In this document: piece by piece, positions 41,992-61,165 of the stretch
How positions within the stretch are numbered: position 1 is the first letter of the stretch
How the letters are laid out: every line of letters starts with the position of its first letter
DNA from: an uncultured Bacteroidia bacterium
GTDB lineage: Bacteria; Bacteroidota; Bacteroidia; Bacteroidales; UBA932
NCBI GenBank assembly: GCA_902784435.1
Contig: CACZUR010000004.1
Span: forward strand, 1-64,000
Length of the DNA: 64,000 nt
Direction: 5' to 3'
The notes under the pieces: model-generated
Database searches by the model: none
What the model was told of the DNA's origin: nothing
Seen by the model: the letters and a program-made list of their open reading frames with translations, nothing else
Program-made: the position numbers and the translations under genes

Positions 41992-42051
41992 GGGCAGACT
42001 CCCCTGCGGCCGCTAATAGAAAGGCCGATGCTCCCTTAGGGGCGTCTGCCC
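41992..42051. repeat. Palindromic element, copy A (intergenic, GH3 to epimerase)
   Basis: Arms GGGCAGAC (41992-41999) and GTCTGCCC (42044-42051) enclose a 43-nt core (42001-42043) starting CCCCTGCGG and ending TTAGGGGC. The core matches copy B (60631-60673) at 38 of 43 positions. Inside it CGGCC pairs with GGCCG, giving a compound hairpin. On the minus strand it stays open in the frame used by copies B and C. Together with the CCCCGAAT/ATTCGGGG hairpin around the GH3 stop (41971-41994), it could weaken transcription. Confidence 0.85.
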
Positions 42052-42069
42052 TGAAAACAAGAGTTGACG

Positions 42070-43251
42070 ATGGAAACAAGGACAGACTTATTCTTAAAAG
42101 AAGTCCGGGAGTGCCTGACGCAGAATATCCTGCCGTACTGGCTGCGCCTGAAGGACCCTCGCGGCGGTTTTTACGGAGAGGTTTCCTCGGACAGCACCGT
42201 CAAGTACGATGCTCCGCGGGGCGTCATCCTGAACGCCCGGCTCATCTGGGCTTTCTCTGCGGCTTATCAGGCACTGGGAAACACCGAATATCTGGTGGCC
42301 GCGGTCCATGCCCGGGACTGGTTCCTGGCGCATTTCTGCGACCACAAATATGGCGGCGTGTACTGGAGCGTGAGCGCGGAAGGGGAGCGCCTGGATACCA
42401 AGAAGCAGTTGTACGCCCAGGGTTTCGCCATTTACGGCCTGTCGGAGCTGTACAAGGCCACCCGTGACGACGAGGCGCTCAAGAACGCCGTGAACCTGTA
42501 CAAGGTGGTGGAAACCTATTTTGCCGACACAGAGAACGGCGGTTACATCGAGGCCCTGGCCCGGGATTTCTCCCCGCTGGAGGATATGTCCCTGAGCGCC
42601 CACGACATCAACGCCGACAAAACCATGAACTCCCACCTGCACCTGCTGGAGGCCTATGCCAACCTGTATCAGGTTTGGCCCGACGAAGGGCTGAAGGCCC
42701 GCGTGGAGGCCCTGCTGGACCTGGTGGGTACACGGGTCATGGCCCCGGACGGCCATCTGCAGCTATATTTCCGGAAGGACTGGAGCGTGCTGCCGGGCGG
42801 CCTCTCTTACGGTCACGACATCGAAACTTCCTGGCTGGCGCTGGAATGTGCCTTCGCGCTCAAGGACCTGGATGTAGTAACCCGTGTGCGCCCCTGGGCG
42901 CTGGCCATGGGAAAGGCCGGCAACGAAGGCCTGCTCCCGGACGGATCCATGCGCTACGAACTGCTTCCCGACGGCCGCTACGACGATTCCCGCCAGTGGT
43001 GGGTGCAGGCCGAAGCCGTAGTGGGCAACCTGTGGCTGTGGAAATTCCACTCCGACGCCGCCGGGGCAGAACGCGCCCTGGCCCTGTGGTATTACATCCG
43101 GAAGCACCTCGTAGACAGCCGCGGCGGGGAGTGGTGGTGGGCCGTACTGCCGGATGGCTCGCTGGACTTCTCCCAGCCCAAGGCCGGCTTCTGGAAATGT
43201 CCCTATCACAATTCCCGCATGTGCCTCCAAGTATTAAAGATTTTTGAATAG
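42070..43251 (+). CDS. Cellobiose/mannobiose 2-epimerase (AGE family)
   Basis: A 393-aa cytoplasmic alpha/alpha-barrel protein. Family marks: GGFYGEVSSDS near the start, DTKKQLYAQGFAIYGL, SAHDINADKTMNSHLHLLEAYANLY. The two catalytic histidines of the family should be those in YGHDIETSW (about residue 249) and PYHNSRMC (about 379). It interconverts glucose and mannose at the reducing end, here beta-1,4-mannobiose to mannosyl-glucose for the GH130_1 enzyme. The symporter gene follows 4 nt later. A GTG/ATG six bases upstream (42064) is an alternative start. Confidence 0.93.
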   Translation: METRTDLFLKEVRECLTQNILPYWLRLKDPRGGFYGEVSSDSTVKYDAPRGVILNARLIWAFSAAYQALGNTEYLVAAVHARDWFLAHFCDHKYGGVYWSVSAEGERLDTKKQLYAQGFAIYGLSELYKATRDDEALKNAVNLYKVVETYFADTENGGYIEALARDFSPLEDMSLSAHDINADKTMNSHLHLLEAYANLYQVWPDEGLKARVEALLDLVGTRVMAPDGHLQLYFRKDWSVLPGGLSYGHDIETSWLALECAFALKDLDVVTRVRPWALAMGKAGNEGLLPDGSMRYELLPDGRYDDSRQWWVQAEAVVGNLWLWKFHSDAAGAERALALWYYIRKHLVDSRGGEWWWAVLPDGSLDFSQPKAGFWKCPYHNSRMCLQVLKIFE

Positions 43252-43255
43252 TCAT

Positions 43256-44599
43256 ATGGCCAAATTATCAGAGAAAATAGGCTATGGCCTGGGTGACGCC
43301 GCTGCCGGCGGCATTACCTGGAAAGTGATGTCCATTGCTTTTCCCTTCTTCTTTACCAATGTCTTCGGCCTTACCGTGGCCGATGCCGCCGCCCTCATGC
43401 TGGTGGCCCGTCTGTTCGACGTGGTCACGGACCCCATGATGGGCGCTATCGCAGACCGCACCCGTTCGCGCTGGGGAACCTACAGGCCCTGGCTCATCTT
43501 CGGAGCCATTCCGCTGGGTCTGGTGTTTGCCCTGCTCCTGTATACCCCGGACCTGGGGCCTGCCGGCAAGCGTGTCTATGCCTATGCCCTGTATCTGCTC
43601 ATGATGGTGGTATACACCGCCGTGAACGTGCCCTACGGCTCGCTGCTGGGCGTAATGACGGACGATGACGACGAGAAAAACCAGTTCTCGTCGTACCGGA
43701 TGGTAGGAGCCTATGCCATGGGCTTCGTTACCCTGTTTGCCTTCCCTTACCTGCAGAAGATGGTGGGTGGCACCCCGCAGCACCAGTACGCCGTGCTGGG
43801 TGCCGTGCTGGGCGCCGTGGCGGCCCTGGGCACCCTGGCCTGCGGCCTGCTCACCAAGGAACGGCTCAAACCCGTCCGTGCAGAGAAGTTCTCCTTCAAG
43901 CCTTTCGCCGACCTGTTCCGTAACAAGCCGTGGATCTACCTCACGCTCATCGGCATCTGCACCAATTTCTTCAACGGCTTCCGCTATGCCGTGGCGGCCT
44001 ACCTCATGGAGTATTGCCTGCACGGGGATGTCACTGTCTGGGGGCTGGTTATCAACTACACGGTGTTCATGATGTTCGGTGAGGCTACCTGCATGGTCTT
44101 CGGCGGCCTGTCCCCCTGGTTCACCAAGAAGGTGGGCTCCAAGAACAAGGCTTTCGCCTGGTCGGCCATCATCTGCGCCGTGTCGTCCATCCTGTTCTTC
44201 TTCATCCCCATGGATCCGGCCTGGATCTGGGTGATGGTGGCCAATGTCATTGTCACGTCCATCGGCATCGGCTTCTATTCTCCGCTGCTGTGGTCCATGT
44301 ATGCCGACGTAGCAGACTATGCCACCCAGAAGAACGGCACCTCCTCCACCGGCCTCATCTTCTCGTCCGGAACCATGGCGCAGAAGTTCGGATCGGCCAT
44401 TTCCGGTGCCCTCGTGGCCATGTTCCTGGGCCTGTCCGGCTTCATTTCCAGCACAGACCCCATCACGCAGGACACCGTCATCACCATCACCAACCAGGGG
44501 GCTGTCCAAACCATGATCTGGGCGCTGTTCTCCCTGTTCCCGGCCGCCATCGCCCTCCTCATCCTGCTGCTGCTGCGCCTGTATCCCATCAAGAAGTAG
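43256..44599 (+). CDS. GPH-type sugar:cation symporter
   Basis: A 447-aa membrane protein with about 12 helices, of the glycoside-pentoside-hexuronide:cation symporter family (MFS_2). Family marks: KIGYGLGDAAAGGITWKV at the N-terminus, RLFDVVTDPMMGAIADRT, and RWGTYRPWLIFGAIPLG. It probably brings mannobiose across the inner membrane for the epimerase and phosphorylase. The start at 43256 fits the family (MAKLSEKIGYG). Last gene of the PUL on the plus strand. Confidence 0.93.
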   Translation: MAKLSEKIGYGLGDAAAGGITWKVMSIAFPFFFTNVFGLTVADAAALMLVARLFDVVTDPMMGAIADRTRSRWGTYRPWLIFGAIPLGLVFALLLYTPDLGPAGKRVYAYALYLLMMVVYTAVNVPYGSLLGVMTDDDDEKNQFSSYRMVGAYAMGFVTLFAFPYLQKMVGGTPQHQYAVLGAVLGAVAALGTLACGLLTKERLKPVRAEKFSFKPFADLFRNKPWIYLTLIGICTNFFNGFRYAVAAYLMEYCLHGDVTVWGLVINYTVFMMFGEATCMVFGGLSPWFTKKVGSKNKAFAWSAIICAVSSILFFFIPMDPAWIWVMVANVIVTSIGIGFYSPLLWSMYADVADYATQKNGTSSTGLIFSSGTMAQKFGSAISGALVAMFLGLSGFISSTDPITQDTVITITNQGAVQTMIWALFSLFPAAIALLILLLLRLYPIKK

Positions 44600-44627
44600 G
44601 CATCCGCTTTCTGCTTCGCGCATGATG

Positions 44628-44720
44628 CGCAAGTGATTGATAGTTAGCATCTTATGGATTTTTATCGGTCCAATTTGCGCCGATAAAAATCCATAAAACG
44701 TTAATACTGAGGCACTTGCG
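44628..44720. repeat. Nested dyad-symmetry element downstream of the symporter
   Basis: An inner perfect 17-bp inverted repeat (44652-44668 with 44680-44696, 11-nt loop) begins TTATGGATTTTT. It is enclosed by an outer 8-bp repeat, CGCAAGTG (44628-44635) and CACTTGCG (44713-44720). There is no T-run after the stem, so it is not a classical terminator. It may stop transcripts, bind a protein, or be a small mobile remnant. The rest of this 157-nt gap shows only the promoter at 44746. Confidence 0.8.
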
Positions 44721-44745
44721 AACCAGCGTATTTCGGGCGTTTCGT

Positions 44746-44753
44746 TATCTTTG
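44746..44753 (+). promoter_or_regulatory. -7 box of the following hypothetical gene
   Basis: TATCTTTG only 3 nt before the ATG at 44757, so the mRNA would be leaderless or nearly so. The -33 region is poor (ACCA). Confidence 0.55.
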
Positions 44754-44756
44754 GGC

Positions 44757-45338
44757 ATGGAAACGCCGGACTGGGGTTTATTGGCACTCACTTTCTTCCT
44801 GAACAGGCCCATGCTGCTGCAGGAGAGTACGCCGTTGTACAACTGGAGCTGGGAAGAGCAGGAAACCTGGGAGCTGGCTCAGTTCATCCGCAGTGCCATG
44901 CAGGAAATCCGGCGGCGGAAAGAGCCTCTGCGCCCGGAAATCCTTTACGGGCAGCAGATGGTGCGCGTCCGCATCACCAAGGGATATCGGGTCTATATCG
45001 GCGGGCAGGAACTGAAAATCCGCCCCATGGCCAAAAGCATCCTCCTGCTTTTCCTTCGGCATCCGGAAGGGATTCCGCTCAAGCGGATCGCAGACTACCG
45101 CGATGAACTGGCAGGGTATTACGGCCGCCTGAGCCGAAGCTCGGACCCGGAGGCCATCGAGCACAGCCTGGACCGCATCATGGACCTTTTTTCCAACGAC
45201 CTCAATGTGAACATCGCCCGGGTAAACGCCGCGCTAGCCCCTCTGGTGGGGCCGTCCCGTGTCCTGTACCAGATTGGCGGGAATTCCGGCAGTTCCAAAA
45301 GCATCCTGCTGGACCGTTCGCTGGTGGTCTGGGAGTGA
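44757..45338 (+). CDS. Conserved hypothetical protein, possible winged-helix regulator
   Basis: A 193-aa soluble protein, no signal. Residues ~70-193 look like a C-terminal DNA-binding unit of the response-regulator type: a short strand pair (RVYIGGQELKIRPMAKSILLLFLRHPEGIPLKRIADYRDEL) and a conserved end (GGNSGSSKSILLDRSLVVWE), which I associate with an unnamed Bacteroidales family. Function not known. The ATG at 44757 is used; a TTG two codons upstream lies inside the -7 box. It is followed by AT-rich repeats and a transposase gene. Confidence 0.7.
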   Translation: METPDWGLLALTFFLNRPMLLQESTPLYNWSWEEQETWELAQFIRSAMQEIRRRKEPLRPEILYGQQMVRVRITKGYRVYIGGQELKIRPMAKSILLLFLRHPEGIPLKRIADYRDELAGYYGRLSRSSDPEAIEHSLDRIMDLFSNDLNVNIARVNAALAPLVGPSRVLYQIGGNSGSSKSILLDRSLVVWE

Positions 45339-45353
45339 CGCCCCGCCCCTTAA

Positions 45354-45434
45354 AATCCTTTAAAACATATCACAATCCTTTGAAACATAAAAAAAATCCT
45401 GTGAAACAACACATCTTTTCAAAGGATTCTTTTT
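45354..45434. repeat. AT-rich iterons with one inverted copy, before the RAYT gene
   Basis: Three direct copies of AATCCTTTGAAACA or a one-base variant start at 45354, 45374 and 45395 (period 20-21 nt, two helical turns). An inverted copy, TTTCAAAGGATT (45417-45428), can pair with any of them; with copy 2 it forms a perfect 12-bp stem. CTTTTT follows, so one form is a terminator-like hairpin. The rest of the 138-nt gap has only a weak -7 box, TATCTTTC (45453-45460). Confidence 0.75.
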
Positions 45435-45476
45435 CGGGAAGGGGAGAGTGCGTATCTTTCCCCAAAAAGCGAAGAC

Positions 45477-46406
45477 ATGAAAAAGCGAAAAGATTACGCG
45501 GGAGGGGTCCATCACGTCTTTCAGAGAACCATCGGCCGGGGCCTTATTTTCTATTCCATGAAAGACATTTTGGTGTTCTTTACCATTTATTGCGCCTATG
45601 CCGACAAGCGGAATGTGAGAATCCTGGCGCTCTGTCCCATGCCGGACCATATCCATCTGGTGCTCTCTGTCACCGGGGCAAAGCAGCTGGCCGATTTCAT
45701 GCACACGGCTACGCGCCTCTTTGCCCGGGAATGGAATATCGGTCATCGGCGGAAAGGACCGTTATTCCAGCATCCCTATGGCAGCTCGGCCAAGCTGGGC
45801 AGCAAAGCGGTGCGCACCTCGCTGGCCTATTGCAACAACAATCCCGTGGAACGGAAGCTCACGGAAAAGGCCGAAGATTACCGGTGGAACTTCCTGGCCT
45901 ATTACCGGAACACGCATCCTTTTTCCGAGCCGCTTGCGCTTACGCAGGCTTCGGGCCGCCTTCGCAGTGCCATCAAGATTGTGGAGGCCTGCCGCGATGC
46001 CGGAGGCTATTTGCGCTATCAGGCGCTGGACCGCTGGGAGAAAAGTCTGTCGGACAGGGAATGGCAGCAGCTGGCCGACCATATCATAGGAGAGTGGAAT
46101 GTGATGGACTATGAGCAGGCCATTGCCTATTATGGCAGCTACGAGTCCCTGCTCCGGGCCTTCCGGGACAACACGGGCAGCGAATACGAAATCCCGGAAG
46201 AGCGGGACCCCTATTCCGACGCGGTCTATGCCGCGTGCTCCAGGGTGCTGCTCGCCGAAGGGCTGGTGCAGGACCTGCGGGAGGTGCCGATGATGGACCA
46301 TGAGCGGAAAGACGCCTGCTGCAGGCTTTTGGTGCGGCGGACATCGGCCCGGATGAAGCAAGTGCGCAAATACCTGCACCTCCCGCTGGATATGGAGGGT
46401 TGGTAA
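45477..46406 (+). CDS. REP-associated tyrosine transposase (RAYT, Y1 HUH family)
   Basis: A 309-aa protein related to IS200-type transposases. The HUH motif is PDHIHLV (His58 and His60); the catalytic Tyr is probably Tyr118 in AYCNNNPVERKL, matching the YxxxNPV motif of RAYTs. A long C-terminal part (about 150-309) of mixed helices follows. RAYTs are single-copy domesticated relatives that act on short palindromic REP sequences. No terminal repeats of an insertion sequence surround it. The upstream region has iterons. It ends just before the rpmH terminator. Confidence 0.88.
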   Translation: MKKRKDYAGGVHHVFQRTIGRGLIFYSMKDILVFFTIYCAYADKRNVRILALCPMPDHIHLVLSVTGAKQLADFMHTATRLFAREWNIGHRRKGPLFQHPYGSSAKLGSKAVRTSLAYCNNNPVERKLTEKAEDYRWNFLAYYRNTHPFSEPLALTQASGRLRSAIKIVEACRDAGGYLRYQALDRWEKSLSDREWQQLADHIIGEWNVMDYEQAIAYYGSYESLLRAFRDNTGSEYEIPEERDPYSDAVYAACSRVLLAEGLVQDLREVPMMDHERKDACCRLLVRRTSARMKQVRKYLHLPLDMEGW

Positions 46407-46411
46407 CTGCG

Positions 46412-46445
46412 CAAAAAAGCCGCAGGCTCCGAAGAGGCTGCGGCT
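46412..46445 (-). terminator. Terminator of rpmH
   Basis: AGCCGCAG (46418-46425) pairs with CTGCGGCT (46438-46445); six T residues follow on the minus strand. Convergent with the RAYT gene. Confidence 0.85.
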
Positions 46446-46466
46446 TATAGCTACAGAAGGAAAAAA

Positions 46467-46619
46467 CTACCAGCGGTCCTCGTCGGACACGGAGAGTTTC
46501 TTGCGGGCGTGGCGACGACGGGCGCTCAGGACGCGGCGGCCGTTGGCGGAAGCCATTCTTGCGCGGAAGCCGTGCTTGTTCACACGCTTGCGGCGGGAAG
46601 GTTGAAATGTTCTCTTCAT
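46467..46619 (-). CDS. rpmH: 50S ribosomal protein L34
   Basis: A short gene of 50 codons plus stop, encoding [20 protein letters not shown] at the start, a highly basic protein with the L34 signature KRTFQPS and [17 protein letters not shown]. It is part of the large ribosomal subunit. The C-terminus (VSDEDRW) is acidic and typical of Bacteroidota versions. It has its own perfect promoter (46656-46687) and a terminator; it is too short for a standard ORF cutoff. Confidence 0.96.
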
Positions 46620-46655
46620 ATTATCTCTATTTTATATTTTTTCGCGTAAGGGCTG

Positions 46656-46687
46656 CAAAGATAATCATTCTTCCCGAAACCGCCAAA
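46656..46687 (-). promoter_or_regulatory. Promoter of rpmH
   Basis: Minus strand: TTTG (46684-46687), 20-nt spacer, TATCTTTG (46656-46663), 36 nt before the ATG. Exact match to the Bacteroidota consensus; it touches the end of rsmG. Confidence 0.8.
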
Positions 46688-47341
46688 TTATTTTTCAAGA
46701 TGTATGACCAATTTTCCCTCGAACCAGGCATCGGGGAGCCAGGAAGAGACGGGCCATGTGTGTACGCTGCCTTTTGCGAGCCGATGACGGGCCATCACGG
46801 TGGCCAGCTCTTCCACTACGTCGCCGCCTTTGAGGTACAGGATGCCGCGGCGGAATTTGCCTTTTACCCAGGGGTAGAAGTCCACGAGGGATGCCACGGC
46901 ACGGGAAACCACAAAGTCGAACTGCTGGGGAAGGCTCTCTGCCCGGGCGTTTACTACCTGGACGTTCTGCAGGTTCAAGGCCGATGCAACCGCCTGTGCT
47001 ACAATGGTTTTCTTCCCAACGGAGTCGCAAAGGACCCACTGCGCCCCAGGGAAGAGGATGGCCAGCGGAATGCCGGGGAAGCCGCCCCCGGTGCCCAGGT
47101 CCAGGACCGAGGCCGATGCAAACGCCTCATAGAGTCCCGGTACCGTCTGCAGATAGCGGGCAATGGCGAGGGAATGCAGGACATGGTGTTCGTACAGGGC
47201 GTCGATGTCTTTCCGGGAGATGACGTTGATCTGGGCATTCCACTCCCGGTACAGACCGTCCAGCGCCGTGAAAGCGGCTTCCTGCGCTTCCGTGAGCGGA
47301 AAATCGGCCCGGATAAAGTCCAGAAATGCAGCGGTGTTCAT
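46688..47341 (-). CDS. rsmG: 16S rRNA (guanine-527 N7)-methyltransferase
   Basis: A 217-aa SAM-dependent enzyme methylating G527 of 16S rRNA. Family marks: YREWNAQINVISRKD, HVLHSLAIA, the SAM loop VLDLGTGGGFPGIPLAI and the late motif VVSRAVASL. It overlaps the sigma factor gene upstream by 4 nt (ATGA), so polA, sigma and rsmG form one transcript. Confidence 0.95.
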   Translation of the reverse strand: MNTAAFLDFIRADFPLTEAQEAAFTALDGLYREWNAQINVISRKDIDALYEHHVLHSLAIARYLQTVPGLYEAFASASVLDLGTGGGFPGIPLAILFPGAQWVLCDSVGKKTIVAQAVASALNLQNVQVVNARAESLPQQFDFVVSRAVASLVDFYPWVKGKFRRGILYLKGGDVVEELATVMARHRLAKGSVHTWPVSSWLPDAWFEGKLVIHLEK

Positions 47342-47913
47342 TCCACTTCCCCCCGGAGCATCATCTGGGCCAGGTGCTGTTTGCCCCGGCGGATGCGCGT
47401 GCGGACCGTATTGAGCTCCAGGTCCAGCTCTTTCGCAATCTCTTCGTATTCCAGTTCTTCTATCATATACTTGATCATCACGTCTTTATACAGGGATGGA
47501 AGTTCGTCGATGAACGCCATCAGGCGCTGGTGCACTTCGTCGTTGATAATCTCTTCTTCCGGCGTAAAGTCCGTGAGCTGTGCACCGCCTTCCGGGCTCT
47601 CCTGTTCGGCCTTGTGCAGGATGCCTTCCTTCTTCTCGCTTTCCCGCCGGATGGTGCTCAGATGGTCCAGCGCCGTGCGGGTGGCGATGGTCAGGAGCCA
47701 GGGACGGAATTCCCGCGAGGTGTCAAAGGCGGGAAGGGCCACAAAGGCTTTCTGGAAGCTTTCGGACACGACGTCGTCTACGTCGGCCTTCCATTTGAAA
47801 TAGCCGCTCACACGGCCGCGGACAGCTTTTTCATGAATCTGGTAGATGGCCCGGTAGGCCATCTGGTCTCCCTGGATGGCTTTCTGAATCAGTTCTTTTT
47901 CGTTGTACTCCAT
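47338..47913 (-). CDS. ECF-type RNA polymerase sigma factor
   Basis: A 191-aa sigma-70 family protein with region 2 (YRAIYQIHEKAVRGRVSGYF, DVDDVVSESFQKAF) and region 4 (LPSLYKDVMIKYMIEELEYEEIAKELDLELNTVRTRIRRGK). The start at 47913 is chosen because the frame extending to 47985 lies inside polA. No membrane anti-sigma gene is adjacent; its neighbours are polA (1 nt upstream) and rsmG (4-nt overlap), so it may be expressed constitutively. Confidence 0.9.
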   Translation of the reverse strand: MEYNEKELIQKAIQGDQMAYRAIYQIHEKAVRGRVSGYFKWKADVDDVVSESFQKAFVALPAFDTSREFRPWLLTIATRTALDHLSTIRRESEKKEGILHKAEQESPEGGAQLTDFTPEEEIINDEVHQRLMAFIDELPSLYKDVMIKYMIEELEYEEIAKELDLELNTVRTRIRRGKQHLAQMMLRGEVE

Positions 47914-47914
47914 A

Positions 47915-50650
47915 TCAATGCGCTTCCAGCCAGTTTTTTCCCGCGGCGCATTCCACCGTAAGCGGAACGGACAGGCGGATGACATTTTCCATCACTTCTT
48001 TCACCAGTTGCTGCAGCCGGGGTACCTCCGTGGGAATGGCGTCGAACACCAGTTCGTCGTGGATCTGCAGCACCATTTTGCTTTGCAAGCCCTCTGCAGA
48101 GAGCCTTTCCGCCACGCGGATCATGGCCAGTTTGATGATATCGGCCGATGTCCCCTGGATGGGGGCGTTCACGGCGTTGCGTTCCGCCAGGGCGCGGACG
48201 GTGGCATTGCGGGCCTGGATGTCCGGCAGATAGCGCCGGCGTCCGAAGAGGGTTTCCACATAACCGTTGGCCCGGGCAAAGGCGATGCTGCTGTCGATGA
48301 ACGAGCGGATGGCCGGGAAAGAGGCGAAGTAGCCGTCGATGAGCTCTTTGGCCGCAGTGCGCGACAGATGCAGCCGCTGCGCCAGGCCGAAGGAGGAGAT
48401 GCCGTACATGATGCCGAAGTTGGCGGTCTTGGCCATGCCGCGCTGCTCCCGCGTTACTTCCGAAACCGGTATGCCGAAGATCTTGGCGGCGGTGGCGGCG
48501 TGTACGTCCACTCCGTCGCGGAAAGCCTGTACCAGATGGGCGTCCTGGCTCAGGTGGGCCATGATGCGCAGTTCGATCTGGGAGTAGTCCGCGCTCACGA
48601 TGAGGCCCTGGGGCGTGGCCGGAACAAAGGCCTTTCGGATTTCCTTGCCGCGCTCCGTGCGGATGGGGATGTTCTGCAGGTTGGGGTTGGAGCTGGAAAG
48701 CCTTCCGGTTGCTGTAAGCGCCTGATTGAACGTTGTATGGATGCGCCCGTCCAGCGGAGAGATGTAAGTGGGGAAAGGCTCTATGTAGGTGGACAGGAGT
48801 TTTTTCACGGCACGGAATTCCAGGATTTCCTCTACGATGGGATGCCGGTCCGCGATGGCCAGGAGGGTGGCTTCATCCGTGGAATACTGGCCCTTGGAGG
48901 CGCTCTTTTTGGCCTTCGGGTCCAGTTTCAGTTTGTCGAAGAGCAGTTCGCCCACCTGTTTGGGCGAGGAAATGTTCAGCTGCGGAGCGTCGGCGAGCGA
49001 GCGGATGCGCTCCTCCCGCTGCACCAGTTCCCGGCGCAGGCCATCGGCAAACTCCTTGAGCTGCGCCATATCCACTTTCACGCCGTCGCATTCCATCCTG
49101 GCCAGCACTTTGGCCAGCGGTTCTTCCATTTGGTCATAGAAGGAAGGCAGGTTTTCCCTCAGTTTGTCTCCCAGGGGAATCATCACCTGTGCTTCCAGCA
49201 GATGGGGGGCATCCTCCTCCTCGGGAACATCGTCGAAAAGCGATCCGGTACTGGCCGGGGCCGACGGCTCCAGAGAAACCCCCAGGTAGGTCTGTGAGAG
49301 GGCCGACAAGTCGTGGCTGCGCTCGGGATTCAGTACGTAGTGCATGAGCTGGACATCATTCCATTGTCCAGCGAGGCCGATGCCTTCCGCCGCCAGCGTC
49401 CGGGCCGTTTTCTTTAGGTCCGAGCCGTATTTGGCCACGGATGCGTCTTCCAGCAGCGCTTTGGCTTCGGAAAAGGAGGCCGATGCCACCAGACCGCCCG
49501 CGGAAAGGCTGATCCGGTGCCCCCACAGGGCCAGGCCTGCTTTCCCCGATGCTTTCGCGGCGCTCAACACATCGGCCACCGGGGATGCTGTCCCCGCAGG
49601 AACAAAAGAGAGGGCCGATGCCCCTGCGGGCACCGCCTCCCCCTTGCCAAAAGCGGGTCCGGGCACGGAAACGGGGGTTTTGGTGCCCGCGAGGCCATTT
49701 TGGGCGGGTCCGGGCACGGAAACGGGGGTTTTGGTGCCCGCGAGGCCATTTTGGGCGGGTCCGGGCACAGAAACGGGGGTTATTGTGCCCGCGAGGTATT
49801 TTTTCAGGGAGGTGAACTCGTATTCCTGAAAGAGTTCTGCCAGGCGGGGGGTGAAGGCTCCGCTGTAGCGCATCTGCTCCAGGGTGACGGGGAGGGACAT
49901 GTCTGTCTTGATGGTGACCAGGGCCTTGGACAGGGCCATGTGCGGCTGCGCCTCCCGGAACAGTTCCTGCTGCCTGGCTGTCAGCTGGTCCAGATGGGCG
50001 TAAATGTTTTCCAGGGAGCCGTACCGGGCAATGAGTTTGGCGGCGCCGACCTCTCCAACGCCCTTGACACCGGGTACGTTGTCGGCCGTATCGCCGCAGA
50101 TGGCCAGCATGTCAATGACCTGCGAGGGACTCTGGATGCCCCATTTCTCACAGAGCTCCTTCACCCCCAGAATCTCGTTGTCCGCGCCCGACTTGCCGGG
50201 TTTGTACTGGAAGGCGTGCGGGCCCACCAGCTGGCCGTAGTCCTTGTCCGGCGTGACCATATACACGTCCAGGGTTTCGGAGGCGTTCTGCACGGTAATG
50301 GAACCCAGTACGTCATCGGCCTCGAAGCCCGGAACCATCACCACCGGGATGCCCATGGCCTCTACCAGTCCGGTGAGGGGCTCCAGGGCGTCGATGATCA
50401 GCTGCGGGGTGGGCGGGCGCGTGCCCTTGTATTCCGGGTACATCTGGTTGCGGAAAGTACCGCCCGGCGGGTCGAAGGCCACGGCCAGGTGGGTGGGTTT
50501 TTCCCGTTGGATGAGCTCCAGAAGGTATTTTGTGAATCCGAAGAGGATGGACATGTCCGCCCCCTTGGAGTTGATCATCGGCCTGCGCAGGAACGCGTAG
50601 TACATCTTGAATACCAGCGCATGCCCGTCGATAAGAAACAGTTTGTCCAT
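47915..50650 (-). CDS. polA: DNA polymerase I with repeat-derived linker
   Basis: A 911-aa protein: 5'-3' flap exonuclease (about 1-285; FDPPGGTFRNQMYPEYKGTR, DKDYGQLV, GVKGVGEVGA), a shortened 3'-5' exonuclease-like region (about 363-480) and the polymerase (about 520-911) with motif A SADYSQIELR, motif B TREQRGMAKTANFGIMYG and motif C QIHDELVF. The proofreading acids are mostly absent (GLALWG at the first site), so proofreading is probably lost. Residues ~288-362 are unusual: three 17-aa repeats (GTKTPVSVPGPAQNGLA) followed by a palindrome-encoded stretch. Operon with the sigma gene and rsmG. Confidence 0.95.
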   Translation of the reverse strand: MDKLFLIDGHALVFKMYYAFLRRPMINSKGADMSILFGFTKYLLELIQREKPTHLAVAFDPPGGTFRNQMYPEYKGTRPPTPQLIIDALEPLTGLVEAMGIPVVMVPGFEADDVLGSITVQNASETLDVYMVTPDKDYGQLVGPHAFQYKPGKSGADNEILGVKELCEKWGIQSPSQVIDMLAICGDTADNVPGVKGVGEVGAAKLIARYGSLENIYAHLDQLTARQQELFREAQPHMALSKALVTIKTDMSLPVTLEQMRYSGAFTPRLAELFQEYEFTSLKKYLAGTITPVSVPGPAQNGLAGTKTPVSVPGPAQNGLAGTKTPVSVPGPAFGKGEAVPAGASALSFVPAGTASPVADVLSAAKASGKAGLALWGHRISLSAGGLVASASFSEAKALLEDASVAKYGSDLKKTARTLAAEGIGLAGQWNDVQLMHYVLNPERSHDLSALSQTYLGVSLEPSAPASTGSLFDDVPEEEDAPHLLEAQVMIPLGDKLRENLPSFYDQMEEPLAKVLARMECDGVKVDMAQLKEFADGLRRELVQREERIRSLADAPQLNISSPKQVGELLFDKLKLDPKAKKSASKGQYSTDEATLLAIADRHPIVEEILEFRAVKKLLSTYIEPFPTYISPLDGRIHTTFNQALTATGRLSSSNPNLQNIPIRTERGKEIRKAFVPATPQGLIVSADYSQIELRIMAHLSQDAHLVQAFRDGVDVHAATAAKIFGIPVSEVTREQRGMAKTANFGIMYGISSFGLAQRLHLSRTAAKELIDGYFASFPAIRSFIDSSIAFARANGYVETLFGRRRYLPDIQARNATVRALAERNAVNAPIQGTSADIIKLAMIRVAERLSAEGLQSKMVLQIHDELVFDAIPTEVPRLQQLVKEVMENVIRLSVPLTVECAAGKNWLEAH
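49581..49642. repeat. Palindromic element, copy C (inside polA)
   Basis: Stem CCCGCAGG (49593-49600) with CCTGCGGG (49623-49630) and outer GGGGA/TCCCC (49581-49585, 49638-49642). The loop contains AAAAGAGAGGGCCGATGC, matching copy B at 16 of 18 positions. Read with polA it encodes GEAVPAGASALSFVPAGTAS, close to the peptide encoded by copy B in nrnA and in the same frame. Confidence 0.75.
49655..49804. repeat. 51-bp palindromic tandem repeat inside polA
   Basis: Units start at 49655, 49706 and 49757. Units 1 and 2 are identical; unit 3 is diverged and incomplete. Each contains GGGCAC and GTGCCC about 16 nt apart, so each unit can form a hairpin. The period of 51 keeps the polA frame and adds 17 aa per copy. 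It abuts palindromic copy C. Confidence 0.9.
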
Positions 50651-50672
50651 TTTGTCCCTGCCCTTCAGCCGC

Positions 50673-51038
50673 CTATTCTCCGCTCAGTTTCTTCACAATC
50701 TCGTCGTCGCCGGTGAATACATGGCCGAAGACGCCTACGGATACCATGTCGGTTTCTCCGCCGTGGGTGAGGCGGCCCACGCTGTATACGTAGTGGTTCT
50801 CTACCTGAAGCTCACTGTCCAGATACCATTCAGAGAGGTTGGACCCCAGCTGGGAAATGCCGCCCAGGATGCCCAGGACGTCGTTGCTCTTGTCTTCGTT
50901 GAGGCCGAGCTCTTTGCCGATGTTCTTTTCGATGGCAGCCTTGAGGGCATCTTTGTGGGCCTGCTCGTCGGGGCAGGTGAAGTAGGCGATGCCTCCGACA
51001 ATGAGGAGGAACAGTGCGAGTTTGAAAAGACCTTTCAT
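50673..51038 (-). CDS. Small membrane-anchored protein, DUF4359-like
   Basis: A 121-aa protein with one N-terminal helix (about 5-21) followed by a short CPDEQAHKDALKAAIEKN helix and a beta-rich part (HYVYSVGRLTHGGETDMVSVGVFGHVF). It resembles DUF4359 proteins, of unknown function. It is 22 nt upstream of polA on the same strand and probably shares its promoter region (51064-51071). Confidence 0.65.
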   Translation of the reverse strand: MKGLFKLALFLLIVGGIAYFTCPDEQAHKDALKAAIEKNIGKELGLNEDKSNDVLGILGGISQLGSNLSEWYLDSELQVENHYVYSVGRLTHGGETDMVSVGVFGHVFTGDDEIVKKLSGE

Positions 51039-51071: not shown

Positions 51072-51081
51072 AACAATTTTT

Positions 51082-52146: not shown

Positions 52147-52148
52147 GT

Positions 52149-52247: not shown

Positions 52248-52552
52248 ACCCGAAATTTCTGCTTGTTTCAGACCCGGCCCAACCCTTGGTGGGCACTTTC
52301 GTGTACGGCCTGGTGTATCAGCACAAGGATCTGATCCGGGGCTATGTGAAAACCCACGGAGGCGGCTGGTATCACAAGGATGACAAGGCCAAGGTGATGA
52401 CCCTCTACGGAAGTTCCGGGGATTACGGTGAACCGGACTTCCGTTTCCTGGACCGCATTCCGCGGGAGCTCAAGGATTATACCTTCATTTACACGCCTTT
52501 CTGGGGCGCTCCTGAAAAGGAACTCTCCCTGGAAGGGGTGGAATGGTTCTAG
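52244..52552 (+). CDS. Hypothetical protein
   Basis: A 102-aa soluble protein starting MNPKFLLVSDPAQPLVGTFV, rich in Tyr, Gly and Asp (GGGWYHKDDKAKVMTLYGSSGDYG). No family is recognised. It starts by ATGA overlap with the 32-aa stub and ends in a 4-nt convergent overlap with the MsrA fusion gene. Codon use resembles its neighbours, so it is probably a real gene. Confidence 0.6.
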   Translation: MNPKFLLVSDPAQPLVGTFVYGLVYQHKDLIRGYVKTHGGGWYHKDDKAKVMTLYGSSGDYGEPDFRFLDRIPRELKDYTFIYTPFWGAPEKELSLEGVEWF

Positions 52553-53454: not shown

Positions 53455-53457
53455 GGA

Positions 53458-55137: not shown

Positions 55138-55153
55138 AAAATAACTGTTTGCG

Positions 55154-55161
55154 CAAAGATA
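55154..55161 (-). promoter_or_regulatory. -7 box of ettA-msrA
   Basis: TATCTTTG on the minus strand, 16 nt before the ettA ATG. It rules out the longer ettA frame. No clear -33 element. Confidence 0.55.
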
Positions 55162-55195
55162 CAATTTTCCCGGAGAATAACAGTCCGGGGAAAGG

Positions 55196-56482
55196 CTATT
55201 TCCGGAACAGGTCACGGGACGGGAGCTGCGAGGAAAAGCGCCCGCGGAGGTTCTGGAACAGCTGGGCGGTGTTGCGGGTAAAGCGCGAGCCCCGCCAGGC
55301 CGACGTGTTGGTGATCAGGATCCACATCTCTCCGTCCGGGTATACCTTAATCAGGGCCGATGTCCCGGAAAAGGAGCCCGTACGTGTCCATTCCCCGTCC
55401 GGGCGGCAGTCCAGCCAGCCCAGGGCGAAGGTGTCGTCGTCAAAGTAGGCGGTCATCTGCTGCACGGTGAACGGGTCCAGGATGTCCGGGACGGGCCCGT
55501 GGCCGTCGATGGCGCACACCAGCCGGGCCAGTTCCAGCGTGGACCCTACCCAGCCGCCGGCCCCGTACAGGCCGGAGATGTGGTTGCCGCCATAGCACTT
55601 TTCCACCGAGGCGAAGCGGCCGTCAAAAGAAGGCCCTGGCTCGGCTTCCGGATGCATGTAATAGCGGGACTCCCCGGGCAGGCGGTCTTTCAGGTAGTCT
55701 CCCCCCAGGGCGAAGTGATGGCACAGGGCTTTTTCAAACACCTCCTGCTGCATGAATTCCTCGTAGGGGAGGCCGGACACTCTTTCAATGACCAGCGACA
55801 GCAGCAGGTACCCGAAATTGGAGTATTCCTGGTCTGTGCCGGGCTGGAAGGAGAGCCGTTTGGCCACTTCCTTCCGGACCAGGTAGTCCGGGGTGGGCGG
55901 GGCGCTCAGCCCCCACTGGCGCATCAGGCGCAGGGTGCCGAACATGACGTCACCGCCGCGGGCCGAAAATCCGGCCTGGTGCCGCAGCAGATGTTCCACT
56001 GTCATCTCGTAATAACGGTCGTCGCGGATGCAGGCGTCATACTCGTTCAGGACGCCCAGGGGGCCGAAAACCGGGGTTTCCAGGAACACTTTCCCCTGGT
56101 CCTGCAAGCGCATGATCCCGATGGCGGTGAGGAGTTTGGAAACGGAGGCCATCCGGAGGCGCACTTCGGGCGTCATGGGCTGGTTGGTGTCGGCCTGTCC
56201 GTAACCGCGGGCATACAGCAGGGAGTCGTTCCGGACAATGGACAGGGAGGCGCCCCGGAGGCTCCAGAACTGCAGGAAACTGTCGATGGCGTGATCCATC
56301 GCGGGCAGCGAGGACAGCTCGTTGGTAATGCTGCCGTCGTGCAGGTCTGTTTTCCAGTTCACCGGAATCTCCGGCGCCGGGGCCGCATCGCGGACGGCCC
56401 GCTGCTTCCCGCGTACAAGGTACACCGAAACCGCCGCCAGCAGCAGCGGAAGCACGAAATAGGCCAGGCGGAAGGGCCTCAC
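55196..56482 (-). CDS. Membrane-anchored serine hydrolase (beta-lactamase class C family)
   Basis: A 428-aa protein with an N-terminal membrane anchor (about 5-24) and a periplasmic domain of the beta-lactamase/penicillin-binding type: SxxK motif SVSK in LRMASVSKLLTAIGI, YxN motif YSNFGYLLL. The third motif is less clear near TGSFSGTSA. Such enzymes include D-amino-peptidases and esterases; the substrate is unknown. It overlaps the upstream kinase-like gene by 4 nt and is last in the nrnA operon. Confidence 0.85.
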   Translation of the reverse strand: MRPFRLAYFVLPLLLAAVSVYLVRGKQRAVRDAAPAPEIPVNWKTDLHDGSITNELSSLPAMDHAIDSFLQFWSLRGASLSIVRNDSLLYARGYGQADTNQPMTPEVRLRMASVSKLLTAIGIMRLQDQGKVFLETPVFGPLGVLNEYDACIRDDRYYEMTVEHLLRHQAGFSARGGDVMFGTLRLMRQWGLSAPPTPDYLVRKEVAKRLSFQPGTDQEYSNFGYLLLSLVIERVSGLPYEEFMQQEVFEKALCHHFALGGDYLKDRLPGESRYYMHPEAEPGPSFDGRFASVEKCYGGNHISGLYGAGGWVGSTLELARLVCAIDGHGPVPDILDPFTVQQMTAYFDDDTFALGWLDCRPDGEWTRTGSFSGTSALIKVYPDGEMWILITNTSAWRGSRFTRNTAQLFQNLRGRFSSQLPSRDLFRK

Positions 56483-57087
56483 TTGACCAGGCCGGCTTTC
56501 CGGCCGAAGTCGATGATCAGCTGCGCCGTACCGTCAATCCCCAGCACGGAACTGTCTACGCACAGGTTGTAGTTGGAGGCCTGCCCCCAGTTGCCGAATG
56601 TGTAGTAGTTGTAGTAAGTTTCCCGGGTGCGGTCTTTGCGGCGCATCAGTTTTTCTGCCTCGGAGGCATCCAGGTTTTCCAGGCTTACCAGTCGCTGGAT
56701 GCGGTATTCTTCCGGTGCCCCGATGAAGACATCCAGGCTGGGAATGTCCCGGAGGATATAGTCTGCACAGCGGCCGATGAAGATGGCATCCCCTTTCTCT
56801 GCAATGCCGCGGATGACCTCGCTCTGGATCTTGAACAGCATGTCGTCGGTCACATAGCCGCTTTCCATGGGGCCCATGCGCCCGGAAGAGAAGAAACTGG
56901 ACAGGGAGAACAGCCCGGGTTTCTTTTCGGTCTGTTCAAATACGCTGCGGGAATAGCCGCTTTTCTCGGCCGCCTCGGAGATGAGCTGGTTGTCGTAGAA
57001 GGGAATGCCCAGGATTTTGCCGATGGCCTGGCCTACGTAGCCGCCACCGCTGCCGAAAGACCGGCCTATGGTGATGATGGTATGCAT
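56479..57087 (-). CDS. Cytidylate kinase-like protein
   Basis: A 202-aa P-loop protein. MHTIITIGRSFGSGGGYVGQ fits the cytidylate-kinase-like family, with RSFGSGG in place of the usual P-loop, and ends with the NYNLCVDSSVLG block of that family. It is distinct from the true cmk at 9486-10199; the substrate is unknown. The start at 57087 is preferred to 57129, which would lie inside the MATE gene. Placed 4 nt after the MATE gene, overlapping the serine hydrolase by 4 nt. Confidence 0.85.
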   Translation of the reverse strand: MHTIITIGRSFGSGGGYVGQAIGKILGIPFYDNQLISEAAEKSGYSRSVFEQTEKKPGLFSLSSFFSSGRMGPMESGYVTDDMLFKIQSEVIRGIAEKGDAIFIGRCADYILRDIPSLDVFIGAPEEYRIQRLVSLENLDASEAEKLMRRKDRTRETYYNYYTFGNWGQASNYNLCVDSSVLGIDGTAQLIIDFGRKAGLVK

Positions 57088-57091
57088 AGCG

Positions 57092-58492
57092 CTAGATTTG
57101 ACTGCCAAGGATGGAAGGGTCCTCCCCATCCTTGAGTTTGCCCAGTTTTACCAGCAGCTGCCAGCCCAGAATGGCCGTAATGACGGCTGCGATGGTGTCG
57201 GAGATGGGGAAACTGTACCAGACGCCCACTTCCGACTCCAGGAGTGCGGGCAGCAGGTAGATACAGGGAAGCAGGAACAGCAGCTGCCGGGACAGGGACA
57301 GGAAAATGGATTTCCGGACCATACCCAGGCACTGGAACAGGTTGGTGGTCACCATCTGGAAGCCCACGATGGGGAACACGATATTCATCATGCGCAAGCC
57401 CCGGGAGGCTTTTTCGATGAGGATGGGATCGTTGGTGAAGATTTTCACCACGGGCACCGGGAAGAATACGGAAGCCACGAAACCCAGGAAGGTGACCAGG
57501 GTGGCCCACATGGCCGTTTTCAGGTATACTTCCCGCACGCGGCCGTATTGCCGGGCTCCGTAGTTGTAGCCCGCAATGGGCTGCATGCCCTGGTTGAAGC
57601 CGAATACGATCATGACAAACAGGAAGGTAATCCGGTTCACGATGCCGTAGGCACCGATGGCCAGGTCTCCGCCCCATTTTACCAGCTGCTGGTTGATGAA
57701 CAGCACCACTATACAGCTGGCCAGGTTCATCAGGAAGGGACCGAGCCCGATGGACAGGGAGTCCTTGGCGATGCGCCAGTCTACCCGGAACATGTGGATG
57801 GAGCGGGGGAGGTGCAGGAAGCGCTCCGGATTCAGGAAATACCACAGGGTGTAGCTCAGCGACATCAGCTGGCACAGCACGGTGGCGATGGCGGCCCCGC
57901 GGATGCCCATTCCCAGCACAAAGATGAAGATGGGGTCCAGGATGGCGTTGGAAATGACGGTGAACAGCGTCAGGCCCATGGCCAGTTTGGGATTTCCGGA
58001 ACTTCGGACCACGCTGTTGAGGCCGAAGTACAGGTGCGTGACCACATTGCCAAGGGCAATGATGGCCATATAGTCCCTGGCAAAGGGCAGGGTGGCGTCG
58101 CTGGCACCGAAAAAGCGCAGGATGGGATCCATCCACACCAGGCACACGAAGGTGAACAGGAGGCCCGTAATGATGTTCAGGGTAATCTCGTTGGAGAGGA
58201 CCTTGCCGGCCACCTTGTAGTTCTTCTGGCCCAGCAGCACGGAAATCATGGTAGAGGCGCCCACGCCCACCAGGGTTCCCAGGGCTGTGGAGATGTTCAT
58301 CAGAGGAAAGGTGATGGCCAGGCCGGCGATGGACAGCGACCCCACATCGGGGATGTGGCCGATGTAGATGCTGTCTACCATATTGTACAGGGAAGACGCC
58401 GTCATGGCAATGATGCCGGGAACGGCATATTGCCGGATGAGGGCGTTGATGGGCTTGGTGCCCAGCTCGGTAGGGACTGCTCCGCTGGCCAT
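57092..58492 (-). CDS. MATE-family efflux transporter
   Basis: A 466-aa membrane protein with about 12 helices. MATE features: NALIRQYAVPGIIAMTASSLYNMVDSIYIGH at the N-terminus, GxxALG-type stretch MNISTALGTLVGVGASTMIS, and the second-half repeat MNLASCIVVLFINQQL. It exports organic cations in exchange for Na+ or H+; the specific substrate is not predictable. 3 nt after the second FKBP gene. Confidence 0.92.
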   Translation of the reverse strand: MASGAVPTELGTKPINALIRQYAVPGIIAMTASSLYNMVDSIYIGHIPDVGSLSIAGLAITFPLMNISTALGTLVGVGASTMISVLLGQKNYKVAGKVLSNEITLNIITGLLFTFVCLVWMDPILRFFGASDATLPFARDYMAIIALGNVVTHLYFGLNSVVRSSGNPKLAMGLTLFTVISNAILDPIFIFVLGMGIRGAAIATVLCQLMSLSYTLWYFLNPERFLHLPRSIHMFRVDWRIAKDSLSIGLGPFLMNLASCIVVLFINQQLVKWGGDLAIGAYGIVNRITFLFVMIVFGFNQGMQPIAGYNYGARQYGRVREVYLKTAMWATLVTFLGFVASVFFPVPVVKIFTNDPILIEKASRGLRMMNIVFPIVGFQMVTTNLFQCLGMVRKSIFLSLSRQLLFLLPCIYLLPALLESEVGVWYSFPISDTIAAVITAILGWQLLVKLGKLKDGEDPSILGSQI

Positions 58493-58495
58493 AGG

Positions 58496-59527
58496 CTATT
58501 CTGCCATGACTTCCAGCTCAAAGATCAGGGGTGCGTAACCGGGGATGGAGGCACCCTTGCCGGAAGAACCGTAGCCGTGGGTGGAGGTGAACAGCACGGT
58601 GGCCTTCTGACCTTTGTATTTGAGCAGATACAGGGCGCCCTTGAAGCCGTTGATGAGGCTGCTGCTGCCGCCGAGGGTCACGTTGTCATAGGCAGAGGCC
58701 TGGACGATGGCCACCGTGGTGTAGGCGGCGGCGCTGTTATACAGCCCCGCGTCCTTGGCCACTTTTTCCACGGTGGTGTCAAATACCTGGCCGTTCAGGA
58801 GTTTGCCGGTATAGTTGAGCTGGAACGTTTCTCCGGCCTTGATGGGCTCCTGGTCCCCGAAGGCCGAGACGTCGCTGATGAAATAGAATTTGCCGTCGGG
58901 CTCTTCGTCCGTCACATAGGAGACGGGCTGGACGGAAGTGCCATAATGGCTGGTCACATACTGGGCCAACTGCTGTTTTTCCACTTGGTCCACATCGGCC
59001 GTCTGTCCTTGCAGGCCGATGGTGTATTCCAGATGCGTAGAGGAGGTGCAGGCCGCCAGGTATTTCTCCTCGCTGCCCAGCCGGCTGGTGGTAAGCATCC
59101 AGGCGGGGATGACCGCCTTGCGGGTGCCGCCCAGACGCATGCCGCTGAGCATGGCGTCGATGCCGGCAAAGCTGATGCCTTCGCCCATGGCCATCCATTT
59201 GGGGCCGTAGTAGTTGGCGGGAGAATAGGTGCCCAGCTGCTGGGCCAGCGCCTTGTCTGTGGTGGAGGTGACGGTGCCGCCGCCCAGGGCGCGGATGGTG
59301 ACATCGGCCAGGATGTAATCCAGGCTCTTGTCCCAGGCTTCGCCGCTGCCGGGTGTGTCTTCCAGGATATAGATGCCGTCTGCGTTTTTGGGTACGTTGG
59401 GATAGACGGCCTTCATGTACAGGTCCAGGTATTCTTTGGCTTCCTGGCCGCTGGTGGTTTCCGTCTTCTGTTCGCAGGCCGCTGCAACCAGGCAGAGGGC
59501 CATCAGGAGCAATACTTTCTTATTCAT
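58496..59527 (-). CDS. FKBP-type peptidyl-prolyl isomerase lipoprotein, two-domain
   Basis: A 343-aa lipoprotein (VAAAC, Cys18). The C-terminal FKBP domain (about 205-343) shows AGETFQLNYTGKLLNGQVFDTT and LLKYKGQKATVLFTSTHGYGSSGKG ... YAPLIFELEVM. The N-terminal half (about 45-200) resembles a degenerate FKBP domain. It probably assists folding in the periplasm or outer membrane. It overlaps the preceding small FKBP gene by 8 nt. Confidence 0.87.
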   Translation of the reverse strand: MNKKVLLLMALCLVAAACEQKTETTSGQEAKEYLDLYMKAVYPNVPKNADGIYILEDTPGSGEAWDKSLDYILADVTIRALGGGTVTSTTDKALAQQLGTYSPANYYGPKWMAMGEGISFAGIDAMLSGMRLGGTRKAVIPAWMLTTSRLGSEEKYLAACTSSTHLEYTIGLQGQTADVDQVEKQQLAQYVTSHYGTSVQPVSYVTDEEPDGKFYFISDVSAFGDQEPIKAGETFQLNYTGKLLNGQVFDTTVEKVAKDAGLYNSAAAYTTVAIVQASAYDNVTLGGSSSLINGFKGALYLLKYKGQKATVLFTSTHGYGSSGKGASIPGYAPLIFELEVMAE

Positions 59528-60071
59528 TGAAAATCTTTTCTATCAAAATGTAATAGACCAGGGCCGACAGTGCAGGAATCGTGCCTTTCTCGCTGTTTCC
59601 GAAGCCGTATTTCCCGGTGAACAGGATGTAGGCTTCGTCCCCGGGCTGCACCCCTGCGAGCCCGTCCTGCAGGCCCTGCACCAGGTTCTTGTCCAGGGAG
59701 AGGGTGTCCAGCTTGAAGCGGGTGTTGTCCGAGAGGGTCCACCGGGCCTGCGCGGTCACTTCCTGGATGTTGGTGGCCACCAGGTTAGAAGTGGAAATGC
59801 TGGCGCTGGTCAGGGTGAAACAGGCATAATGGAGCGACACCCGTCCGCCCTCTTTCAGGGAATCCCGTGCCGGGGGCAGGGTGTCGTGCAGGGTAATGCG
59901 GTAGGCCCCGCCGTTCCGGGCAAGCGTGGCTTTGGGGTCTTCCTTCATCCTGGCCGCCACGAAGTTCTCGATAAAAGTGGTCTGTTTGTCGTAGGTGGTC
60001 TGGAGGGACTGCTTGCTGCAAGACAGCAGGCCACCCGCCAGGACAAGCAGTATGAGACTCAGTTTTTTCAT
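59520..60071 (-). CDS. Small FKBP-type lipoprotein
   Basis: A 183-aa lipoprotein (GLLSC, Cys18) with one FKBP-like domain: GGRVSLHYACFTLT, LVQGLQDGLAGVQPGDEAYILFTGKYGFGN and ALSALVYYILIEKI. The VQGLxxGLxGVxxGD block is the FKBP signature. Likely a periplasmic prolyl isomerase or chaperone. It overlaps nrnA by 4 nt (ATGA), so the FKBP pair is translated together with it. Confidence 0.85.
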   Translation of the reverse strand: MKKLSLILLVLAGGLLSCSKQSLQTTYDKQTTFIENFVAARMKEDPKATLARNGGAYRITLHDTLPPARDSLKEGGRVSLHYACFTLTSASISTSNLVATNIQEVTAQARWTLSDNTRFKLDTLSLDKNLVQGLQDGLAGVQPGDEAYILFTGKYGFGNSEKGTIPALSALVYYILIEKIFNE

Positions 60072-61165
60072 GCCAGGAATGCTTTGACGGCCTTCTCTAT
60101 ATAGGCGGGGGCGTCATCGGCACAGGGAATGTCCTCGCCGATGAAAAGCTTGCCGCCGGCGGCATTTTCGTGCCCGCCGCCGTGGAAATACTGCATGGCC
60201 AGCTGCTGGGCGCTGGTGCCTTTTTTGGAGCGGATGGAAACCCGGAAATGCCCCTTGTCCTCTTTCAGGAAAAGGCTCAGCCGGACTTTTCCGATGGTCA
60301 GGGGAACGTTGACCAGCCCCTCCGTCTCTCCTTCGTGCATGTCGTAGCGCTGCTGGATTTCCCGGGTAAGCACCATGTAGGCGGCGCCTTCCGGCAGCAG
60401 GACCATCCGTTCGCTTTGCATGTAGCCCATGAGCCTGACGCGGTTTTCCCGGTAGCAGTTGTAGATTTGCTGCAGGATGGCGTCGCGGTCCACCCCGGCG
60501 GCCATGAGCTCCGAGGCCATCCGGAAGGTGCTGGGAAACACGGAATTGGCAAAATTGTTGGTGTCCGTGGTCATGCCGGTCAGGAGGGCGCTCCCGATGT
60601 CATTGGGCAGTGCCTGACCGGAGGGGGATGCCCCTGCGGTCGCTAAAGAGAAGGCCGATGCTCCCTTAGGGGCTTCCCCCTCCGGTCCCTGTCCCAGTGC
60701 TTTCAGAATCCAGTAGAGGACCTCTGAAGCGGAGGAAATGTGCGGCGTGGAGAACGACAGGCCGAAGCTGTCCCGGTCCGGGTTCAGGTGGTGGTCTATG
60801 AGCACTTTCCGGGCCGGGGAGGCCTTGAGGGGCTCTTCCAGGCTTTCCGTCCGGTGGAAGGCGTTGCAGTCCAGCAGGAACACCAGGTCGGCTTCCCGGA
60901 TGCGCCGTTCCGTAGCGGCGGCGTCGCGGTTATGGAAACAGTAGGGGATTTCCTCCGGGAGGATGAACAGCAGGTTTTCGGGCGGATTGTCCGAAAAGGC
61001 GCAGGCCACGTCTTTTCCGGCCAGGTTTTTCAGATACAGACACAGGGCGGCCGTGGCGCCCAGGGCATCCCCGTCCGGGTGCGTGTGCCCCACGACCACG
61101 GGATGCTTGCATTCCCGGATCCACTGCTGCAGGAGCCTGATGTCTTCGTTTCTGATAAAATCCAT
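60068..61165 (-). CDS. nrnA: DHH-family oligoribonuclease/pAp phosphatase with inserted peptide
   Basis: A 365-aa DHH/DHHA1 protein. Metal-binding motifs are HTHPDGDALGA (28-38), LLDCN (97-101), LIDHHLNPD (122-130) and TTDTNNF (199-205), and the DHHA1 end has GGGHENAAG. NrnA-type enzymes degrade short RNAs and pAp. Residues ~160-187 (GPEGEAPKGASAFSLATAGA) are an insertion between two conserved segments, encoded by palindromic copy B. First gene of a six-gene minus-strand operon (nrnA, two FKBPs, MATE, kinase-like, serine hydrolase). Confidence 0.92.
   Translation of the reverse strand: MDFIRNEDIRLLQQWIRECKHPVVVGHTHPDGDALGATAALCLYLKNLAGKDVACAFSDNPPENLLFILPEEIPYCFHNRDAAATERRIREADLVFLLDCNAFHRTESLEEPLKASPARKVLIDHHLNPDRDSFGLSFSTPHISSASEVLYWILKALGQGPEGEAPKGASAFSLATAGASPSGQALPNDIGSALLTGMTTDTNNFANSVFPSTFRMASELMAAGVDRDAILQQIYNCYRENRVRLMGYMQSERMVLLPEGAAYMVLTREIQQRYDMHEGETEGLVNVPLTIGKVRLSLFLKEDKGHFRVSIRSKKGTSAQQLAMQYFHGGGHENAAGGKLFIGEDIPCADDAPAYIEKAVKAFLA
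60616..60687. repeat. Palindromic element, copy B (inside nrnA)
   Basis: Perfect 13-bp arms GACCGGAGGGGGA (60616-60628) and TCCCCCTCCGGTC (60675-60687), then CCCCT/AGGGG (60631-60635, 60668-60672), around a core (60631-60673) that matches copy A at 38 of 43 positions. Read with nrnA it encodes an extra peptide containing EAPKGASAFSLATAGASP. Confidence 0.9.

Follow-up and report, generated by a model that had tools for sequence, protein, structure and literature searches.

Rickettsia palindromic elements (RPEs) are described, in the excerpts of the literature available to us, as palindromic, dispersed, and divided into several families that lie in frame within unrelated genes; they are about 150 bp long and encode a conserved peptide (PMC10969869). 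REP/RAYT systems consist of small high-copy palindromic repeats, some of which lie within genes, tagged on one side with GTAG or CGTC, and hairpins are the substrate of the Y1 class of transposases (PMC3733652, excerpts). Template switching between the arms of inverted repeats in yeast genes homogenises the arms and inverts the spacer, within coding DNA (PMC8604942), and in RNA genes, compensatory changes arise by template switching (PMC8794818); for both we draw on partial text. Perfect inverted repeats are also found in functional protein genes of the mitochondria of Nematomorpha (PMC6649704, in part).

The window we analysed is a 64,000-nucleotide stretch of DNA from an uncultured gut bacterium of the class Bacteroidia. 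It contains three palindromic elements, A (41992-42051), B (60616-60687), and C (49581-49642), which look like members of a little-known kind of selfish DNA and like a natural archive of the way replication remodels hairpins. The first-pass annotation had reported all three, and we found that they are real and correctly placed. With its margins, element A (41984-42058, plus strand) lies between the stop codon of an open reading frame (39678-41984) and an ATG near 42070. Its arms pair at 41992-41999/42044-42051 and 42001-42005/42038-42042, around a loop at 42006-42037. Element B (60614-60688, plus strand) has arms at 60616-60628/60675-60687 and 60631-60635/60668-60672 and a loop at 60636-60667. 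It is within nrnA (60068-61165, minus strand) and antisense to the gene, between the DHH domain (PF01368) and the DHHA1 domain (PF02272). Element C (49574-49648, plus strand) is antisense within polA (47915-50650, minus strand), in a variable stretch (around residues 298-345 and on) at which relatives' matches split in two. As proposed, B and C are each contained in an open frame, that of NrnA and that of PolA, respectively. A and B are alike over 46 nt, at 87% identity. Their arms GGGCAGAC/GTCTGCCC and GACCGGAGGGGGA/TCCCCCTCCGGTC pair perfectly, as had been said; the stem of C is imperfect. A covariance model recovers A, B, and C from the window with 72.5, 89.0, and 45.6 bits, respectively.

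The part of polA near C has other tandem or palindromic inserts in other species. In the window, three tandem 51-nt units (49653-49805), with an internal inverted repeat (GGGCAC...GTGCCC), adjoin element C. A separate open reading frame (27664-30057) contains direct repeats that are 384 nt apart (29335-29925; 58 nt identical, 124 nt at 74%).

The core recurs elsewhere in the genome: searching the genome and its relatives with the covariance model confirmed a dispersed family, which has about 40 members in this genome of 2.2 Mb. Allowing up to 2 mismatches, we found GGCCGATGCNCCCTNNGGGG at 29 places in the genome, and its reversed control at none; by eye, 23 of these 29 matches form part of a hairpin and the other 6 lie outside one. 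The covariance model, which was built from 20 copies, identified 41 distinct places at E ≤ 0.1, including 40 at E ≤ 0.001 (E-values are rough, and 19 of the 41 places were in the model). These 41 places are the 47 rows reported by the model minus 6 opposite-strand duplicates of the same palindromes. In our list of elements, the sequence of one of the model's matches (C20:101778) was left out and another element (C6:48683) was added by hand. One of the comparisons between sites covered 10 of the 14 that had been listed for it.

Among 400 sampled genomes from the genus, the model matched at least 34 (E ≤ 0.001), which are the source genome and at least 33 of the 399 others; at most 12 candidates were scored per genome, and several genomes have just one weak match. 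With up to 150 candidates scored in each of 14 genomes, there were 42, 39, 35, 23, 19, and 16 matches in six genomes, 7, 4, 1, and 1 in another four, and none in the remaining four. The match counts in both surveys may include two strands of a single palindrome, and two of our genome identifiers (G424 and G171) denote the same genome, with identical coordinates. The family had no match in 24 genomes from other families of the order. The genus is probably Cryptobacteroides; the closest public IleS records are from Bacteroidales MAGs, many of them from ruminants, and named Candidatus Cryptobacteroides come next, at 67–71%.

We view the elements as one superfamily of palindromes, apparently non-autonomous, in this genus. 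In each copy, two arms of about 13–28 bp flank a conserved loop and form Watson-Crick pairs with each other, and the family's perfect palindromes are about 46–92 nt long. Among 87 elements from all loci, loops of 32, 26, 16, and 30 nt are the most frequent; the loops have a common part that resembles AAAAGAAGGCCGATGC, by which the elements were themselves found. A second loop, of 38 nt, lies between similar arms in G019, G341, G005, and G333, and was not found in G371 or G231. Of its 26 full copies, 17 have the very same loop sequence, and there are 0.015 changes per loop site. The viral contigs searched had no match to an exact pattern of either loop. Conservation drops with distance from the loop. 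In 273 kb around the elements, chosen (apart from the window) because they contain elements, we counted 26 perfect palindromes of at least 14 bp, and 22 of them carry the family loop; in the unselected window, 0 of 2 do.

Other repeats were seen along the way. Two inverted repeats in the window (44623-44725 and 12110-12148, with perfect arms of 17 and 16 bp) do not have the family loop and are possibly terminators. At three loci in G341 (L410, L418, and L468), a smaller hairpin whose core is CCGGTCAGGCCGG or close to it is found where G019 has a hairpin with the 38-nt loop. And a motif similar to TCATTCTGAGCGAAGCGAAGAATCT is within the linkers of four loci (L421, L416, L417, and L373); similar repeats are known from other Bacteroidetes.

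Copies are found on either strand of genes and also between genes. Among the 33 of the 41 elements in this genome (G000) that we could assign to open frames of at least 220 codons, 30 use one reading phase per strand: all 20 elements on the gene strand have the same phase, as do 10 of the 13 on the opposite strand (the longest open frames may be wrong at two C12 copies). The host proteins identified by Pfam include Fmt, IleS, MetG, CysS, UvrD, DnaX, RmlD, and a Mur ligase, which a separate comparison showed to be MurE. Judging from their sequences, we took two further hosts to be UvrA and RsmH.

Many relatives have nothing at the same sites. In IleS, the inserted block is missing from 39 of 41 aligned relatives (the alignment includes 41 of 80 loci); one of the others (L228) has another loop and one (L230) has an unrelated insert. 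For RmlD, 6 of 8 related sequences have no insert, and the net gain is 69–75 nt, as compared to a palindrome of 70 nt. For a family 28 glycosyl hydrolase, all four relatives are without the insert, and the net gain is 72–75 nt. The UDP-glucose dehydrogenase of G341 has 28 more residues than its best solved relative, which corresponds to 84 nt (23+38+23), but the gain relative to the close relative in G371 is 78 nt, not 84. For UDP-glucose dehydrogenase, IleS, and NrnA, the best relative of solved structure is shorter at the place of the insert, by 28, 16, and 23 residues, respectively. Net gains are below the length of the palindrome for IleS (48 nt) and MurE (51–63 nt), and the largest are around 100 nt; the linkers being compared are variable. 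At one place in nrnA, 23 genomes have empty linkers, hairpins of this family, or quite different hairpins. Given how many relatives do without the insert, the inserted peptides are not an ancient feature of NrnA or PolA. This and the recurrence of the core were the two points on which the first-pass annotation had made its reading depend, and both came out in its favour. Comparing close genomes, we saw no clear case of a recent insertion with the loop type found in the window. Also in nrnA, G005 and G333 are close (0.914), and their linkers have different inserts, each of which is common to a more distant genome (L168, L169, L170, and L173); this suggests recombination or transfer.

When one arm differs from the consensus, the other arm usually differs to match. 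We compared the 15 inner pairs of 35 elements from G000 (those of the 37 full-length elements with at least 11 of 15 pairs). Of these 525 cells, 317 match the consensus, 177 have Watson-Crick changes on both sides, 4 are G-T, and 27 are something else. In the second family, 117 of 416 arm pairs are changed on both sides, with 2 G-T pairs and 8 others. Our first alignment had 83 two-sided cells, while the mean after shuffling was 24.4. Selection on an RNA stem is expected to leave G-T pairs. Because G-T is scarce (8 of the 75 non-Watson-Crick stem cells in the 87 elements from all loci), the palindrome is most likely kept at the level of DNA. Template switching during replication seems to be the simplest account of this DNA-level pairing, and it would also explain why loops flip.

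Flipped loops are seen at sites that are shared between genomes. At one site in G019 and G341 (L387/L402), the arms are the same and the loop is in the opposite orientation. Similarly, 2 of 12 sites that are common to G101 and G379, genomes of two related species, have flipped loops. (A further pair, L203/L223, is also flipped, at a site that is below the flank threshold and outside the set of 12.) These 12 are the unique shared sites from 17 elements in G101 and 30 elements in G379; including double sites gives 16 pairs. At these sites the arms are 0.745 alike, versus 0.612 for non-orthologous pairs, and their likeness exceeds that of shuffled pairs (P = 0.0006), so the arms retain the history of the site. 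The loops show no such signal (P = 0.74): with just 12 sites, loop identity is 0.904 between orthologs, 0.905 and 0.911 within the two genomes, and 0.879 across genomes. Loop bases also differ by genome: the position that follows GCT holds A in 14 of 17 loops from G101 and G in 28 of 30 loops from G379. Because arms keep their site history while loops do not, the loops look to have been homogenised within genomes. Two pairs of elements speak against so simple a picture: L383 and L385 have site, loop, and orientation in common and have dissimilar arms, in genomes that are about 91% alike, and L401 and L396 are flipped and have different arms. In IleS, DnaX, Fmt, and the putative UvrA and RsmH, the same gene has different loop types in different species.

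We propose, with a probability of about 0.62, that these are RPE-like palindromic elements and that template switching keeps their arms alike and flips and homogenises their loops. A loop cassette (commonly of 32, 26, 16, 30, or 38 nt) between arms of about 13–28 bp would enter a site as a whole hairpin, and selection would spare the copies that stay in frame within tolerant linkers. If an arm then mutated, template switching would soon copy the change to the other arm, and the DNA palindrome would stay nearly perfect while the sequence of the arms drifted. Snap-back copying would also flip the loop. And switching between hairpins with similar inner arms would allow one loop type to spread through the genome by conversion. 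We also consider, tentatively, that the elements might propagate without any transposase. The loop cassette would spread to other hairpins and to new sites via template switching during replication, primed at the inner arms, which are short and conserved, and each site's own arms would drift together. If this is true, then loop types compete and replace each other genome by genome.

The first-pass annotation described the outer arms as completely different and suggested checking whether they derive from the target. In fact, they follow a degenerate consensus. The arms of 28 of 33 elements in G000 fit the family consensus as compared to a background of in-phase coding sequence (P < 0.05). For the second family, once copies from the same site are excluded, 25 of 26 arms fit its consensus over their inner 16 nt (P < 0.01), with all frames as the background; the in-phase control was used only for G000. 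The arms share descent from a consensus and change together on both sides, so they are not arbitrary target DNA. This bears on a rather unlikely alternative, in which the replicating strand picks up another copy's loop and goes on to copy itself in reverse, which would make one arm resident target DNA and the other a newly made inverted copy. There are several alleles with one arm in close relatives, as this would predict: an RsmH-like gene in G231 has one arm (22/22 nt of the right arm) and no loop, G005 has one-arm alleles at L388 (16 nt, net 54), L380 (net 63), and L391, the nrnA genes of G231 and G341 have such alleles, and so, in part, does the site of L206 in G387. Short inverted homologies at the junctions, and net gains of about a loop plus one arm in IleS and MurE, would fit as well. 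However, when read in its own register, each of the five resident arms that we scored fits the consensus for the family's arms (P = 0.016, 0.009, 0.004, <0.001, and <0.001). Because both the elements' arms and these resident arms fit the consensus, it looks as if most arms came with the element and most one-arm alleles are what deletions left behind. Furthermore, RmlD, the family 28 glycosyl hydrolase, UDP-glucose dehydrogenase, and the dnaX site in G005 gained approximately the whole palindrome. We therefore reject target-derived arms as a general rule.

It seems improbable that the hairpins are moved by a Y1 (RAYT-like) or other transposase, as with REP or MITE elements. The window does encode a Y1_Tnp protein: the match to PF01797 (45567-45839) is within an open reading frame of 309 amino acids (45477-46406, plus strand), and there are two more matches elsewhere in the genome. 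But Y1_Tnp is present in all of the genomes that we searched (16 identifiers, 15 distinct genomes), with or without elements. Among them are G371 and G231, in which we found no loop of either type, and G348, which gave no match to the R1 model. Across these 15 genomes, its presence shows no correlation with the elements. Also, we saw no fixed terminal repeat, and the few clean empty sites show no consistent target duplication. Least probable of all is that the hairpin acts as an RNA, or that its peptide is useful, and that selection for this maintains the pairing: covariation is strong and the loop and reading phase are conserved, but G-T pairs are not enriched, A, B, and C have no match in Rfam at the gathering score (a scan of the window found one tRNA only), and copies lie on either gene strand and between genes and are dispensed with by many relatives.

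Our results suggest that in-frame invasion of housekeeping genes by palindromes is not confined to Rickettsia. The elements also provide many natural replicates for a question that can rarely be tested, which is how the arms of a hairpin stay paired as they evolve. The small number of one-sided changes points to correction of DNA rather than selection on RNA. Covariation in an alignment need not imply a functional RNA, nor must an extra peptide in a protein from this genus have a function.

As the first-pass annotation had supposed, no such family seems to have been described from Bacteroidales: a literature search, with thin coverage of subscription journals, found none. The palindromes of Nematomorpha differ in that, by the partial account we drew on, both arms encode conserved native protein, while the inserts described here are missing from relatives. 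Like REP elements (as excerpted), these are small palindromic repeats with high copy number, some of them in genes. Unlike REP elements, the outer ends of their arms have no common sequence (by eye) and no GTAG or CGTC tag, and no transposase correlates with them. Unlike MITEs, they have no conserved terminal inverted repeats, as conservation falls away from the loop. The flipped loop at L387/L402 is like the spacer inversion described for yeast (PMC8604942, in part). The cases of template switching in the excerpted text (PMC8604942 and PMC8794818) are repeats at single loci, or spacer inversions with 2–5 substitutions, while ours is a dispersed family of inserts. The likeness to RPEs, which the first-pass annotation had pointed out, is fair as an analogy, at the level of description. 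Instead of about 150 bp with a conserved peptide, the palindromes described here are about 46–92 nt, with a conserved loop that can be exchanged or flipped and arms that change together, and they come from another phylum. But like RPEs, they are palindromic and dispersed, form several families, and lie in frame within unrelated genes.
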